From Thermovirga sp. (GTDB taxonomy: Bacteria; Synergistota; Synergistia; Synergistales; Thermovirgaceae): a DNA stretch of 58,810 nucleotides. The notes beneath the pieces were generated by a model, which saw nothing but the letters and a program-made list of their open reading frames with translations, was not told the DNA's origin and searched no databases. Numbering within the stretch: the stretch's first letter is position 1; each line of letters opens with the position of its first letter. The stretch spans positions 1 to 58,810 of the forward strand of contig NZ_JACDOB010000008.1 of assembly GCF_017656375.1 (NCBI RefSeq). The letters are read 5' to 3'. Positions 16,831 through 22,357 of this stretch are shown here, piece after piece. The position numbers were made by a program, and so were the translations under genes.

Positions 16831-17859
16831 ATGAGAAAAGCATTCAAAGGTATGCTTGCAGTCGTTTTGTTGTCTTTCGTGGTGGTACTGTTGGTAGGGG
16901 CAGCTTTTGCTGCGGATAAGAAAGTTGTTTTTGTTGACCACAGTTGGAACAGTATTCAGATGCACAACAGAATAGCAGGGTATATTTTAGAGAAAGGTTA
17001 TGGCTATAAGCCTGATTACATGTTTGCGGAATCTGTTCCAGGCCTGACTGGCCTTGCCAGAGGGGAAATAAATGTGCTCATGGAGCTATGGGTGGATAAT
17101 GTCCTGGATTGGTATAAAGAAGAGGTAGAGGGAACTGGCAGAGTTTTGGATTTGGGAGAAGTTTATCCTGATGCCCCGCAAGGCTGGTATGTTCCTACCT
17201 TTGTTATAAAGGGGGATGCTAAAAGAGGCATCAAACCTATGGCTCCAGACCTCAAATCTGTATTTGACCTGCCTAAATATTGGGAACTTTTCAAGGATCC
17301 TGAGAACCCCAAGAAGGGTCGCTTCTACAACGCTGTGCCAGGATGGGTTGTCCACGATATCAACTTAAAGAAGCTGGAAGCTTATGGGCTTCTTAAGTAT
17401 TTTGAGCCCTTTGACCCTGGTTCTCAGACAGCTTTGGCTACAGCCATAGTGTCCAATTATGAAAAAGGCAAGCCAGTGTTGGCTTATTATTGGGAGCCAG
17501 AATGGATAATGGGCATGTTGGATATGACTAAGCTGGAAGAGCCTCCTTACGATCCAAATCGTTGGGGGAAAGATAAAGACTTTGGTTGTGAATTCCCTCC
17601 TTCAAAGGTACACATAGGGATAAACGCCAAATACGCTAAAGAAAACCCCGAAATAGTGGAATTCTTGAAAAAGTATGAGACAACTCTTGCTCAAAATAAC
17701 GCAGCGCTGGCCTTTATGCAGAAGAACGAGGCTTCTGTTGAAGACGCAGCCATATGGTTCTTGAAGACATATCAGGATGTATGGAGTAAATGGGTAGATG
17801 ATCCGGAAAAAGTGGAAAAGGTAAGGAAAGCATTGGAGAAGGAGAAGAACCAACAGTGA
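16831..17859 (+). CDS. Glycine betaine/proline-type ABC transporter substrate-binding protein
   Basis: 342 aa, OpuAC/ProX-like. A signal peptide of about 27 residues (basic MRKAFKG, hydrophobic core, AFA cleavage region) directs export. The mature part shows HSWNSIQMHN and repeated aromatic residues (W, Y) as expected for a quaternary-ammonium cage, ending in a helical C-terminus. AGGAGGGGG precedes the ATG. It is followed with a 4-nt overlap by its ATPase gene and then the permease, in the order binding protein-ATPase-permease. A compatible solute (osmoprotection) or a choline/betaine-like nutrient is the likely cargo. Confidence 0.88.
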   Translation: MRKAFKGMLAVVLLSFVVVLLVGAAFAADKKVVFVDHSWNSIQMHNRIAGYILEKGYGYKPDYMFAESVPGLTGLARGEINVLMELWVDNVLDWYKEEVEGTGRVLDLGEVYPDAPQGWYVPTFVIKGDAKRGIKPMAPDLKSVFDLPKYWELFKDPENPKKGRFYNAVPGWVVHDINLKKLEAYGLLKYFEPFDPGSQTALATAIVSNYEKGKPVLAYYWEPEWIMGMLDMTKLEEPPYDPNRWGKDKDFGCEFPPSKVHIGINAKYAKENPEIVEFLKKYETTLAQNNAALAFMQKNEASVEDAAIWFLKTYQDVWSKWVDDPEKVEKVRKALEKEKNQQ

Positions 17860-18749
17860 GTGATGTAGCCATAGAAGTAAAAGAACTTTGGAAGGTATAT
17901 TCGAAATCCAAGTCGGGAAAGGTCGTACTAGATGTAGATGATGAGGAGCTTATGAGGTCCATTGAGGTCTCTGAAGAGGACGTCGTGGCTGTAAGGGATT
18001 TGTCGTTTGAAGTAAAGAAAGGCGAAGTATTCATCGTGATGGGGCTTTCTGGTAGCGGAAAGTCTACACTGATTCGCTGTCTGATACGCCTTGTGGAGCC
18101 AAGTTACGGAAAGGTAATCATAAATGGCTACGATGTCACTGCAATGGATAAAAAAGAATTAACGGAATTCAGAAGGTATCAGACAGCTATGGTTTTCCAA
18201 CATTATGGATTGTTGCCTCATAAGGACGTTTTGGATAATGTGGCCTTCGGATTAAAGCTAAGAGGTGTTCCGAAGAAAGAGAGAAGAGAGAAAGCTATGC
18301 ATGCTCTTGAGGTTGTCGGTCTAGAGAAATGGGCTAACTACTACCCATCCTCGCTGAGTGGTGGAATGCGTCAGAGAGTTGGAATTGCAAGAGCTTTGGT
18401 TGCGGATCCCCCGATATTGTTAATGGATGAACCGTTTAGCGGATTGGATCCCTTAATACGCAGGGAAATGCAGGACGAACTAATTCGCCTTCAGGAAGAG
18501 ATGCATAAAACCATATTTTTTGTCACCCATGATTTAGATGAAGCCATGCGTTTGGGAGATAGAATGGCCGTAATGCGAGATGGGAGCATAGTGCAGATTG
18601 GCAAACCCGCTGAGATCTTTGCAAATCCTGCCAATGATTATGTGGCTCGCTTTGTACAGGATAGAAGAGAAGAGATCAGAAAGGCCGATGAACAGATAGC
18701 AGCGCTCAATGCAGCGAAAGACAAAGAGGTGAATAGCGATGTTTCCTGA
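17856..18749 (+). CDS. Glycine betaine-type ABC transporter ATP-binding protein (OpuAA/ProV-like)
   Basis: 297 aa. Walker A GLSGSGKST, Q-loop region MVFQHYGLLPHKDVLDNVAFG, ABC signature LSGGMRQRVGIARAL, Walker B ILLMDEPFSGLDP and the H-loop FFVTHDLDEA are all present, so it should hydrolyse ATP. The N-terminal extension before the P-loop (about 50 residues, rich in acidic residues) and the block YGKVIINGYDVTAMDKKEL are typical of the quaternary-amine uptake family. Unlike many ProV proteins it ends without tandem CBS domains, so CBS-type ionic-strength sensing is absent. The GTG start overlaps the stop of the binding protein gene. Confidence 0.9.
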   Translation: MSDVAIEVKELWKVYSKSKSGKVVLDVDDEELMRSIEVSEEDVVAVRDLSFEVKKGEVFIVMGLSGSGKSTLIRCLIRLVEPSYGKVIINGYDVTAMDKKELTEFRRYQTAMVFQHYGLLPHKDVLDNVAFGLKLRGVPKKERREKAMHALEVVGLEKWANYYPSSLSGGMRQRVGIARALVADPPILLMDEPFSGLDPLIRREMQDELIRLQEEMHKTIFFVTHDLDEAMRLGDRMAVMRDGSIVQIGKPAEIFANPANDYVARFVQDRREEIRKADEQIAALNAAKDKEVNSDVS

Positions 18750-19593
18750 GGCTTGGGAATTTCACGTGGCACAACATCTTAATAGAGGAATAAAGATTTT
18801 GATACAAAACCACAGTGAAGGTTTTGACGCTTTTTCAAACGGGCTTTTGCAGTTTTTGTTAGGTGTGCAGTCAGCCCTGTCAACGATTCCGTGGTGGGGA
18901 TATATATTATTGATTGCACTTATATCATGGTTTAGCATAAGAAGAATTGTCCCGACTATAGTTTTGTCTTTGTTGCCGCTGCTAATAGGAGTTTTTGGCT
19001 TTTGGGACCTTGCTATAGAGACATTGGCTATAGTAGTTGTCTCGGTTGTAATTTCCCTTGTGCTCGGTATTCCTCTGGGTGTAATAATGGCTGAAGTCAA
19101 AAGCCTTGGCTATGTGATAAGGCCTATTTTGGATGCCATGCAGACTATGCCTAGTTTCGTTTATCTGATACCAGCCATGATGTTGTTTGGATTGGGTAAG
19201 GTGCCTGCTATTTTGGCTACGGTTATATATGCCCTTCCACCGGTGATAAGGCTAACGTGCCTTGGGATTGAGCTAGTCCCTAAACCTGTGCAGGAAGCAG
19301 CCTTAGCTTATGGAGCGACTAGGTGGCAGCTTCTGAAAGAAGTGCGTCTCCCACTAGCAATGCCGTCCATAATGGCTGGTGTCAACCAAACTACAATGAT
19401 GGCTCTTTCGATGGTCGTCATAGCCTCAATGATAGGTGCTAGGGGGCTAGGCCAGGAGGTTTTGCTTGCTATAAACAGGATCAATGTGGGGCGAGGATTT
19501 GAGTCTGGTATTAGTATAGTCATTATGGCTATAGTAATAGACCGTATAACCCAAGGGCTTGCGAAGAAGTGGGACCCAGTCAAAAAACGTTAA
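18739..19593 (+). CDS. Glycine betaine-type ABC transporter permease (OpuAB/ProW-like)
   Basis: 284 aa integral membrane protein with a soluble N-terminal stretch of about 50 residues and then several hydrophobic helices. The cytoplasmic coupling (EAA) loop is readable as QEAALAYGATRWQLLKEVRLPLAMPSIMAGV. The final segment GLGQEVLLAINRINVGRGFESGISI is characteristic of ProW/OpuAB. It overlaps the ATPase gene by 11 nt and completes a three-gene importer. A hairpin follows before the rhodanese-like gene. Confidence 0.9.
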   Translation: MFPEAWEFHVAQHLNRGIKILIQNHSEGFDAFSNGLLQFLLGVQSALSTIPWWGYILLIALISWFSIRRIVPTIVLSLLPLLIGVFGFWDLAIETLAIVVVSVVISLVLGIPLGVIMAEVKSLGYVIRPILDAMQTMPSFVYLIPAMMLFGLGKVPAILATVIYALPPVIRLTCLGIELVPKPVQEAALAYGATRWQLLKEVRLPLAMPSIMAGVNQTTMMALSMVVIASMIGARGLGQEVLLAINRINVGRGFESGISIVIMAIVIDRITQGLAKKWDPVKKR

Positions 19594-19631
19594 TGCTTAA
19601 ATGGCAAAAATTGCTGATGGCATATATTAGC

Positions 19632-19670
19632 CCCTCCAGGTAAAATATAGTTATCTGGAGGGCTCATTTA
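19632..19670 (+). terminator. Possible terminator after the betaine transporter operon
   Basis: An 8-bp stem (CCCTCCAG at 19632-19639 with CTGGAGGG at 19655-19662) has a 15-nt AT-rich loop and is followed by CTCATTTATTTG. The T tract is imperfect, so this may be leaky. Confidence 0.5.
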
Positions 19671-19702
19671 TTTGTGAAAATAAGCATGAGAGGATGGTCG
19701 AG

Positions 19703-20674
19703 TTGCGTAAGATTGTAATTTCTGTAATGCTTGCTTGTATTGTGTTAGCTGCCGTTGCGGCAGCGGCTTTTGCTGCTGAGGGTGGGAAGCAGTCTCTTTA
19801 TGTAACTCCCGAATGGTTGAAGGCTCATAGGAATTCGGTTGTTATCGTGGACGCCAGACCTAAATCCCTTTACGCCAATGGCCATATTCCTGGTGCTGTT
19901 AATGCAGAGTGGACGTACTTTGCCAACATGAAGGGACGCCCTGGTTCCCCTGGTTGGGGAGATCTTTACCCCAAACATATTTTGGCCAAGAAGATAGGAG
20001 CCTTGGGTATTGATGGAAAGAAACCGGTAGTTGTCTATGCCGACCCAGGTGGATGGGGGCAAGACGGATGGGTAGTTTGGATATTACGCCTTTCGGGTAT
20101 AGAGAACGCGAAAATGTTGGAAGGCGGGTTCCTGGCTTGGAAAGCAGCAGGTGGCAAAGTTTCCACTAAACGTGTAGTGGCAAAGGCTAAACCCTTTAAG
20201 ATAGAGAGTTTCAGGGGAGGTTATAATGTCACTACACCATGGCTAAAGGTCAAATTAGGAGAAGTCCGTATAATAGACGCTAGAACTCCTTTCGAATACC
20301 AGGGAGCAAGAATCTTCCAGGAGCGCAGGGGAGGCCATATCCCAGGGGCTATAAATATACCTTATGATTCGGTTTTCAATGAGGATCAGACGGTAAAGGA
20401 TGTAGGGGAACTTAAAGCCCTTTTCCAGTCCTATGGCTTATCTCCAGACGACGAGATAGTGGTGTACGACACCGCGGGGGTGAGGTCAGCATACTTGGTT
20501 TTGGTCCTAAGAATGGCTGGATTTGAAAATGCGAGAAATTATGATTCCTCATTCCACGAGTGGGCAGGAACTCCTGAGTTGGAAGTTGTTCAAGGGAGCG
20601 AGCCTGGGGCTCCGTCTCCACTCGCTGCTGCAGGTAATAATGAGAAAAATAGCACCCAAGCGGTAAGTAACTAA
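19703..20674 (+). CDS. Exported tandem rhodanese-like protein lacking the catalytic cysteine
   Basis: About 323 aa with a signal peptide (MRKIVISVML to AFA). Two rhodanese domains are clear: VDARPKSLYANGHIPGA and IDARTPFEYQG with GGHIPGAINIPY. The active-site loop that should hold Cys reads YADPGG in domain 1 and YDTAGVRS (Asp near residue 256) in domain 2. The mature protein has no cysteine at all, so sulfurtransferase activity by the known mechanism is impossible. TTG 19703 is preferred: GAGAGG is 9 nt upstream and the signal peptide then starts MRK. ATG 19694 sits directly against that site. The periplasmic role is unknown, and the neighbours are a betaine importer and a nucleoside kinase. 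Confidence 0.85.
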   Translation: MRKIVISVMLACIVLAAVAAAAFAAEGGKQSLYVTPEWLKAHRNSVVIVDARPKSLYANGHIPGAVNAEWTYFANMKGRPGSPGWGDLYPKHILAKKIGALGIDGKKPVVVYADPGGWGQDGWVVWILRLSGIENAKMLEGGFLAWKAAGGKVSTKRVVAKAKPFKIESFRGGYNVTTPWLKVKLGEVRIIDARTPFEYQGARIFQERRGGHIPGAINIPYDSVFNEDQTVKDVGELKALFQSYGLSPDDEIVVYDTAGVRSAYLVLVLRMAGFENARNYDSSFHEWAGTPELEVVQGSEPGAPSPLAAAGNNEKNSTQAVSN

Positions 20675-20719
20675 GCTGTTTTTATCGTGGAGATATGGGG
20701 CATGGGAGTGTTTATGTAG

Positions 20720-22357
20720 ATGCCATTTAGCATTTCTATTGAAGGAGTAGGTCTCAAGACGTTCGACAATCCTGTTTCAGGGAAAGATGTTCTTTCTCTC
20801 TGCACTCTGGACGATAGGCCTGTGGTGGCATGGCATGTTAACAATTACCTCAGACCGTTAACATGGGTCGTGTCGGATCATGCAGAAGTGGATTTCGTGG
20901 ATACCTCAACGTTTGAGGGGATGGCAGTCTACAGGAACACTTTGAGTTTTTTGCTTGTAGTAGCATGTAAGAAAACTTTGGGCAGAGAACTTTTTATAAG
21001 ACATTCCATTAGTGATGGGTTTTTTTGTGAGTTGCAGGGAGGGGCTCCTACGCAGGACGAATTAAAATTACTTCGTGGGAGCCTTAAAAACCTCATTGAA
21101 GAAGATATACCTATAGACATGGAAATCGTGCCTCTGGATAGGGCAAAAAAAATATTTAAAGCCCAAAATGATGTTAGGAAAGCCGATTTATTAGGTGCAG
21201 CATGTATGGATCCAGTCACCGTGTGGTTGTGTGATGGAATTTATGGACATTTTTACACCCCACTAGCACCTTCTGCTGGCTATATTAAATCATGGGATCT
21301 GGTTTCGTTCAGAAACGGTGTGGTGCTTCGCTTCCCTACGGTAACATCGCCTCAAGGATTACCTCCCTTCAGACCTCCAAAGAAGCTTGCGGACGTATTC
21401 GAGGAATACGCTGGCTGGTTGGATATTTTAGGTGTCAACACAATGGAGAGCCTCCACCGTTACGTTGCATCAGGAAAGGCCCAGGAGCTTATTTTAGTGT
21501 CCGAGGCTTTGCATAATCAGAAATTAAACGAGATAGCTTATGAAATAATAAAAAAGGGCGATGTTAAAGTGGTGTGTATAGCAGGTCCGTCTGGTTCCGG
21601 TAAGACTACCACTGCTAAAAGGCTCGCCATAACCCTTAGGGTACGTGGCAAAAAAACGGCAGTAATATCTCTTGATGATTATTTCTTGGACAGAGAAAGG
21701 ACACCAAGGGATGCTGATGGTAATCCTGATTTTGAATCTATAGAGGCTCTAGATTTGGACTTCCTGCACCATCAACTCGAGATGATCCTTGAAGGCAAAG
21801 AAATTATATTACCCAAATTCAACTTTATATCGGGGAAAAGAGAACAAGGGCCTCGCCTAAAGCTAGAGGAGCAGGGTGTAGCCATAATTGAAGGGATTCA
21901 TGGGTTGAACCAACGGATCACGGATGTAGTTCCAGAAGAAAAAATATACAAAATCTTTGTATCTCCTCTTACTGGAATAAGCATGGACCAGTACAACAGG
22001 ACAAGTACTACCGATAATAGACTATTGAGACGTTTGGTAAGGGATTACAGGACGAGGGGGAAGAATGCGGAAGCTACTTTGCTACAATGGCCTTCGGTCA
22101 TTAAAGGTGCCCAGAGGTATATTTTCCCCTATCAAGAACAGGCCGATAGAATGTTTAATTCCGCATTGGTTTATGAACTTCCTGTCCTCAAAGGCTACAC
22201 TGAAGCTCTTCTGAGGAGCGTAAAGGAGTCTTCACCTGCTTATGGGGAAGCCCAAAGACTCTTAACCCTTTCTCAGTATATTCCTTTTATCCCCTCAGAT
22301 GCAGTGCCTAACACCTCCATATTAAGGGAATTTATAGGTGGCAGCTGTTTCGAATAG
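20720..22357 (+). CDS. Uridine kinase-like nucleoside kinase with N-terminal TGS/ThrRS-editing-like region
   Basis: 545 aa. The C-terminal half is a phosphoribulokinase/uridine kinase P-loop domain: IAGPSGSGKTTTAKRL (about 292-307), SLDDYF, and the lid LVRDYRTRGKNAE. The N-terminal half starts like a TGS domain and continues into a region like the editing-type domain of threonyl-tRNA synthetase. This fused architecture is known in Thermotoga and many anaerobes as a nucleoside kinase of unsettled preference. It is cytosolic and probably acts in pyrimidine salvage. The ATG at 20720 has only a weak, distant GGGAG. No operon partner is evident. Confidence 0.8.
   Translation: MPFSISIEGVGLKTFDNPVSGKDVLSLCTLDDRPVVAWHVNNYLRPLTWVVSDHAEVDFVDTSTFEGMAVYRNTLSFLLVVACKKTLGRELFIRHSISDGFFCELQGGAPTQDELKLLRGSLKNLIEEDIPIDMEIVPLDRAKKIFKAQNDVRKADLLGAACMDPVTVWLCDGIYGHFYTPLAPSAGYIKSWDLVSFRNGVVLRFPTVTSPQGLPPFRPPKKLADVFEEYAGWLDILGVNTMESLHRYVASGKAQELILVSEALHNQKLNEIAYEIIKKGDVKVVCIAGPSGSGKTTTAKRLAITLRVRGKKTAVISLDDYFLDRERTPRDADGNPDFESIEALDLDFLHHQLEMILEGKEIILPKFNFISGKREQGPRLKLEEQGVAIIEGIHGLNQRITDVVPEEKIYKIFVSPLTGISMDQYNRTSTTDNRLLRRLVRDYRTRGKNAEATLLQWPSVIKGAQRYIFPYQEQADRMFNSALVYELPVLKGYTEALLRSVKESSPAYGEAQRLLTLSQYIPFIPSDAVPNTSILREFIGGSCFE

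Follow-up and report, generated by a model that had tools for sequence, protein, structure and literature searches.

The rhodanese gene and its surroundings

The window, a stretch of 58,810 nucleotides from a Thermovirga sp. contig, carries on its forward strand a gene for what we describe as a putative exported tandem-rhodanese pseudo-sulfurtransferase, with two matches to Pfam PF00581 (E 9.6e-37). The open reading frame runs either from a TTG at 19703 (19703..20674, 323 aa) or from an ATG at 19694 (19694-20674, 326 aa). A GAGAGG motif is located 9 nt 5' of TTG 19703; the same GAGAGG directly abuts ATG 19694. Judged by eye, the product begins with a signal peptide (19694..19774, forward strand), MVELRKIVISVMLACIVLAAVAAAAFA followed by AEGG, and residues 2-27 form a helix in the structural model. 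The two rhodanese domains follow on the same strand at 19805..20149 (PF00581, 64.1 bits) and 20240..20566 (PF00581, 66.7 bits). The sole Cys of the protein is C15, which by eye falls in the hydrophobic stretch of the signal peptide; the mature protein is therefore Cys-free, as had been proposed. The source genome (1.8 Mb in 85 contigs, 99% complete) has three PF00581 matches, namely the two domains of the window protein and one in a fusion of the CoA-disulfide-reductase type elsewhere. The latter is a flavoprotein whose C-terminal rhodanese domain has retained its loop Cys (contig C11, L139:1477-3198).

Three forward-strand ABC transporter genes precede the rhodanese gene. They code for an OpuAC-type (betaine/choline-like) substrate-binding protein (16831..17859; PF04069, 159 bits, below the NCBIfam cut-offs), a ProV-family ATPase (17856..18749; TIGR01186, 352 bits, above the cut-off) and a permease of the betaine/choline type (18739..19593; TIGR03416, 287 bits, short of the 363 required). 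A possible terminator-like stem of 12 pairs (19632..19662, forward strand) lies between the permease and rhodanese genes and faintly hints that the rhodanese gene is separate from the ABC unit; terminator-like sites in 19550-20800 number 3 versus 1.2 expected in shuffles, a slight excess. Downstream, a gene for a PRK/uridine-kinase-like protein occupies 20720..22357 on the same strand.

Catalytic loops and predicted fold

In active rhodaneses the backbone of the catalytic loop, together with an Arg, cradles the anionic persulfide or the substrate on the catalytic Cys; a rhodanese without this Cys forms no persulfide. In the C-terminal domain of the window protein, loop 2 (Y258-R264, YDTAGVR, 20465..20485, forward strand; VVYDTAGVRS in wider context) has D259 at the Tyr+1 position, in place of the catalytic Cys. 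The D259 codon is GAC (20468-20470), with no in-frame TGA there. Because Asp cannot carry a persulfide, the protein is almost certainly not a sulfurtransferase at this site, as far as its sequence allows one to say. Loop 1 of the N-terminal domain (Y115-G122, YADPGGWG, 20036..20059, forward strand; VVYADPGGWGQ in wider context) has A116 at the Cys-equivalent Tyr+1 position, which is variable among the Asp-type relatives described below.

The original prediction regarded both loops as lacking a required Cys. This holds for Asp259 but not for Ala116, which is ordinary, as the N-terminal domain never needed a Cys. The N-terminal loops of solved relatives aligned with the window protein are YGDKNNWW (1UAR) and YDDEGG (1E0C), and that of 8k55 is also Cys-free, so a Cys-less loop 1 is not evidence of loss; the C-terminal loop of 1UAR keeps the Cys (YCRIAERSS). 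We therefore rejected loop 1 as a sign of Cys loss, tandem sulfurtransferases normally being Cys-less in this domain. According to PMC6272796, the N-domain Cys of tandem sulfurtransferases is often Asp or Gly.

An AlphaFold2 model built from 22 sequences has a mean pLDDT of 85.3 and a pTM of 0.80. The best structural hits of this model are tandem sulfurtransferases over their full length (Foldseek E 3e-23 to 3p3a), and comparison with 3aay gives Z 33.1 and rmsd 2.0 over 265 residues. The rhodanese fold is thus intact in the model, in line with the earlier view that the fold is well kept. Among family models, the window protein scores 88.5 bits with PRK11493 (3-mercaptopyruvate sulfurtransferase equivalog; cut-off 250) and 32.3 bits with ExtH (selenite/tellurite operon rhodanese; NCBIfam cut-off 200), reaching neither cut-off.

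Asp-type proteins form one Synergistota clade

A search of 185 Synergistota genomes at E 1e-20 gave matches in 71 of them. The resulting alignment has 77 rows, all from Synergistota: 58 with Asp at 259 and 19 without, the latter divided among Cys (12 rows), a TGA codon (5) and Ser (2). The Asp rows come from 57 genomes (G159 contributes two) and fall into three families: f1, which includes the window (9 rows), f5 (46, both G159 rows among them) and f8 (3). Two sequences, L119 (a run of N near its end) and L120_3545 (a short single-domain match), were dropped before this count, the former also with Asp at 259; partial matches in G163 and G184 and a second, equally scoring copy in G170 were left out. 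One of the ten f1 genomes, G009 (330 contigs), gave no match even at E 1e-3. The occurrence of Asp in 58 rows and 57 genomes rules out a sequencing error or local mutation at 259, and shows that close homologues do not all have Cys here, the finding that would have pointed to such an error.

With both loops masked, the 58 Asp-type sequences make up one side of a branch with aLRT/UFBoot support of 89.9/96. A second tree, also with masked loops, to which a sequence from an Enterococcus gilvus plasmid was added, supports the branch at 89.2/94; the Asp clade itself is firm with and without this row. The suggested family alignment thus points to a clade, and we conclude from the aligned sequences that a Cys-less C-domain loop marks one clade of Synergistota. 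The surroundings of the clade depend more on sampling. In the second tree, which sets the Asp clade against 19 non-Asp Synergistota rows and the one plasmid sequence, the clade shares a branch of 93.9/98 support with the Cys and TGA forms that adjoin a VTT (DedA/TVP38) gene; without the Enterococcus row, two Ser-type f3 rows fall inside this group and the branch has 18/67. The Enterococcus protein, which is of the Cys type, joins the Asp clade at 88.3/91 in the second tree and is there its nearest non-Asp relative outside the phylum. Its other close non-Asp neighbours there are the Cys-type paralogues in G006 and G040 and the five f4 sequences with TGA. The inner order of the Asp, Cys and TGA forms is poorly supported, at 17.5/53, in the same tree.

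A six-pattern scan of genome contigs starting from the window protein returned 22 loci, all 22 titled as Synergistota and one of them as Thermovirgaceae. Plasmid homologues sampled outside the phylum (6 from 277 matching plasmid records and 3 from 161) have Cys at 259 in 9 of 9 cases. Judging by titles and abstracts of the open-licence literature, no clade of Asp-type tandem rhodaneses has been described.

Constraint on Asp259 and its loop

Y258, D259, G262, V263 and R264 are invariant in all 58 Asp-type rows. Five of the seven loop 2 columns are invariant versus 30 of 270 in the whole core (P-value 2e-4, the seven columns having been set beforehand as the loop rather than chosen at random). 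D259 ranks at the 3rd percentile of site rates and its N-domain equivalent, position 116, at the 50th; at the latter the 58 rows have Gly (30), Cys (14), Asp (8), Ala (5) or Ser (1). Since 259 is slow and 116 evolves at the median rate, Asp259 appears to be kept for more than filling a pseudo-domain. Constraint is not limited to loop 2, however, as Y115 (percentile 6), D117 (11) and W121 (11) in loop 1 are slow as well.

Two pairs of genes with unsaturated dS give dN 0.018 and dS 0.386 in one case and dN 0.073 and dS 0.676 in the other (dN/dS of approximately 0.05 and 0.11); for the pair that includes the window sequence dS is saturated and dN is 0.094. By these codon comparisons the gene is under purifying selection. 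A Cys-free mature protein is not itself a conserved trait, being shared by just 7 of the 58 Asp-type relatives, whose cores have no Cys at all. Cys116 is found in 14 and Cys118 in 6 of the 58, so a nucleophile could have moved to loop 1 in some lineages; the window protein has neither. From the pattern of substitutions, the target of selection is Asp259 with its loop and not the lack of Cys in general. Position 126 is aromatic in the Asp clade (Trp 46, Phe 10, Tyr 2), whereas all 8 sister sequences have Arg there, and most of the sites fixed specifically in the clade carry hydrophobic or aromatic residues.

Some features were noted in single families. In the f5 rows with Cys116 (L060, L065, L101 and L129 are examples), this residue is mostly found within the loop YCDAGGWGQ. 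Several f5 Asp-type proteins have long Ala/Pro-rich stretches ahead of the rhodanese part. The f8 loci L062, L063 and L067 have a longer Asp-type open frame with a C-terminal extension to which no family was assigned; an AMIN domain in this extension, seen in one of two scanned sequences at a sub-threshold E of 0.08, is not claimed.

Cys, TGA and Ser at position 259 in relatives

Paralogues of the Cys type in the same phylum (L070/L071, in G006 and G040) have the loop YCTIGIRSG and an adjoining VTT gene. The protein of E. gilvus plasmid pCR1C (L140) has the loop YCTAGIRSAY and, by eye, a lipoprotein-like N-terminus; its gene follows arsB and arsC and has a TVP38/TMEM64 gene directly downstream (L140:885-4551).

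The f4 relatives (L073-L076 and L120), whose genes also adjoin a VTT/DedA gene, have an in-frame TGA exactly at 259 in 5 of 5 cases (loop YUTMGIRSG). A stem-loop is predicted shortly 3' of the TGA, selA is present in 8 of 8 genomes tested, including one f4 genome and the window genome, and rhodanese-like selenoproteins appear in published lists (PMC13188914 and PMC9312934). Taken together, these points make it likely that the f4 TGA is read as selenocysteine. The four longer f4 loci also carry, in the opposite orientation, a cluster of Fe-S (CCG), radical SAM, NMT1-type ABC and DUF2064-glycosyltransferase genes.

Two f3 loci (L122 and L125) code for long proteins that match the rhodanese domain more than once and have Ser where the catalytic residue would be (YSNFDTRG). 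By their sequences they are a second lineage in which this Cys is missing.

Gene neighbourhood across the clade

We compared gene neighbourhoods at 51 Asp-type loci (39 from f5 and 12 from f1 and f8), leaving out seven rows with short flanks and letting L031 and L032 represent L004 and L003; some of the remaining flanks are also short. At least one of the KDO genes kdsA, kdsD, waaA and kdsB lies upstream at 23 of the 51 loci, all from f5, and purine genes are near eight f5 loci. The PRK-like kinase gene is present at 12 loci, each of them f1 or f8. Seven loci, all from f1, have the betaine-type ABC trio directly upstream. At L058, of the same family as the window, the GntR-rhodanese-kinase arrangement is kept and the trio is absent. 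No operon partner conserved across the whole Asp clade was found among the 51 loci, and this difference in neighbourhood between families argues against a single fixed partner encoded next door. The lipopolysaccharide genes in one family, taken as genomic context, point to a role in the envelope.

A VTT gene adjoins 8 of 8 sister sequences (seven Synergistota loci and the Enterococcus plasmid) but none of the 51 Asp-type loci, short flanks included, and none was found within the 19 kb searched around the window rhodanese. The Asp clade has therefore probably parted from a membrane-protein partner, either as the nucleophile was lost or later, if gene order is a guide. Rhodanese fusions to DedA domains are noted in a paper on DedA proteins, which calls the connection unclear (PMC10127716).

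Two other arrangements were seen. In the KDO operon, a gene of approximately 400 aa between waaA and kdsB (L061:4076-5284) is conserved at 17 of the 51 loci, its product giving merely a sub-threshold match to deoxyhypusine synthase. A Ligilactobacillus salivarius plasmid (L146) has TusA-family, rhodanese-like and D-proline reductase prdA genes in a row.

A probably repurposed sulfur-transfer fold in the envelope

Overall, we suggest that the window protein is an envelope pseudo-sulfurtransferase whose cleft has been repurposed to bind a ligand or partner through Asp259 and Arg264, a reading that we hold to be the probable one. Going by the tree, the starting point would have been a tandem rhodanese that was exported and had kinship with the DedA/TVP38-linked kind. 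In an ancestor of the Asp-type sequences of three families the catalytic position changed to Asp once, from a Cys or a TGA form; after this change the fold and the loop Arg were kept, and Asp259 and its loop were frozen. The interdomain cleft, with Asp259 at its base beside Arg264, is a candidate site for an envelope ligand or a partner protein, the pocket geometry being assumed by analogy with the rhodanese fold. Asp259 may anchor the ligand or may fix the loop in its persulfide-charged shape. A carboxylate in the cradle would disfavour oxyanions; a metal, a ligand that is cationic or neutral, or imitation of the persulfide state would suit it better. That selection has acted on some function other than sulfur transfer outside the cytoplasm, as the original prediction had it, still appears a good inference given the clade, the constraint, the predicted fold and the signal peptide recognised by eye. 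Oxyanion binding, which it offered as an example of such a role, seems chemically less likely because the carboxylate at 259 would occupy the anion-binding loop.

The near-invariance of the DTxGVR loop, including Arg264 in all 58 rows, is also what an active site would display, and KDO/lipopolysaccharide genes upstream at 23 of the 51 loci could supply a context for envelope chemistry. Asp259 might then act as nucleophile or general base and, with Arg264, catalyse for example hydrolysis of an envelope phosphoester or acyl group. However, no second catalytic residue was found newly fixed together with D259, and the chiefly hydrophobic or aromatic nature of the clade-specific fixed sites does not suit a new active site. 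Asp is not known to act as the nucleophile in any enzyme of the rhodanese fold, and we consider this explanation unlikely. Slightly less probable still is a purely structural function, in which the Asp carboxylate would mimic the charged Cys-persulfide in the anion cradle and the domain would serve as a scaffold with no ligand. The retention of the loop residues flanking Asp259 fits such a function, as does the fact that N-terminal rhodanese domains without catalytic function commonly have Asp here (PMC6272796). A scaffold needs no Asp, however, as the mixture of five residues at position 116 illustrates, and the invariance of 259 demands more than a scaffold role.

Genomic context and the remaining Cys residues suggest two further explanations, both of them improbable. 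The substrate-binding, ATPase and permease genes directly upstream of the window rhodanese could make it an accessory part of the betaine-type transporter, such as a second periplasmic receptor. We find this very doubtful, since the trio is not seen at the other 44 of the 51 loci (some with short flanks), same-family L058 included, and the weakly indicated terminator-like stem would set the permease and rhodanese genes apart. An aromatic cage (W121 with aromatic 126) as a quaternary-ammonium site of the Asp clade, matching the ABC genes, was also considered; the idea was weakened because Cys-type 1uar and 8k55 are aromatic there too and the trio occurs at only 7 of the 51 loci. Least credible of all is continued sulfur transfer through another Cys in loop 1 or with a partner. 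Cys116 or Cys118 could serve in the relatives that have them, but the window protein is Cys-free after its signal peptide, as are seven cores of the clade, and loop 1 of the Asp clade lacks the Arg126 present throughout the sister set.

The preferred reading, that of a repurposed binding cleft, admits a bolder and quite tentative extension. The Asp-type proteins might represent a new Asp-centred site in the rhodanese fold, one phylum having used Cys, selenocysteine and Asp in turn at the same position; a cleft that formerly held the persulfide anion would now be acidic and would recognise an envelope ligand without negative charge, whether cationic or neutral, or catalyse a non-sulfur reaction. 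In a whole exported tandem protein of one phylum, the nucleophile was apparently lost once and its substitute then frozen, and relatives with Cys, apparent Sec and Asp at one position offer a natural series on how a sulfur-transfer fold is repurposed. The Asp clade is an uncharacterised envelope protein of Synergistota by this account, and the name 'sulfurtransferase' would mislabel all of it.

Comparison with known systems

The closest solved proteins are tandem sulfurtransferases of the TST/MST type (8k55, 1uar, 3p3a, 3aay and 1e0c), which the window protein resembles in having two rhodanese domains in one chain, a conserved loop Arg and a Cys-less N-domain (phmmer E 1.2e-38 to 8k55). Unlike them, it has a signal peptide (by eye), and the C-domain catalytic Cys of the CxxxxR motif is Asp in it and in the other 57 members of the clade. 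The DedA/TVP38-linked rhodaneses (L140 and L070/L071), also exported as judged by eye, are among the Cys-type sequences closest to the Asp clade, their loops YCTAGIRSAY and YCTIGIRSG recalling YDTAGVRSAY of the window protein. They have the catalytic Cys and an adjoining VTT gene, whereas the Asp clade lacks this Cys and has no VTT gene near the 51 loci compared.

Rhodanese-like selenoproteins include UxxG forms (PMC13188914), with which UTMG at 259 in the f4 relatives agrees; the window protein differs in its GAC codon at this position, with no TGA. Replacement of Cys by Asp or Gly is described for TST N-domains and for the rhodanese homology domains of MAPK phosphatases in PMC6272796, and the window protein is similar in this respect.

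With a predicted rhodanese fold and no nucleophile, the window protein fits the definition of a non-catalytic rhodanese module. The dead rhodanese modules known are usually docking domains or make up half of an otherwise active protein. In the known cases one dead domain stands beside an active or unrelated domain, whereas the window protein has no nucleophile in either of its two domains, and the C-domain Asp is invariant in its clade. Judging by open-licence titles and abstracts, Asp-type tandem rhodaneses thus appear to be a not-yet-described form of the known non-catalytic rhodaneses.
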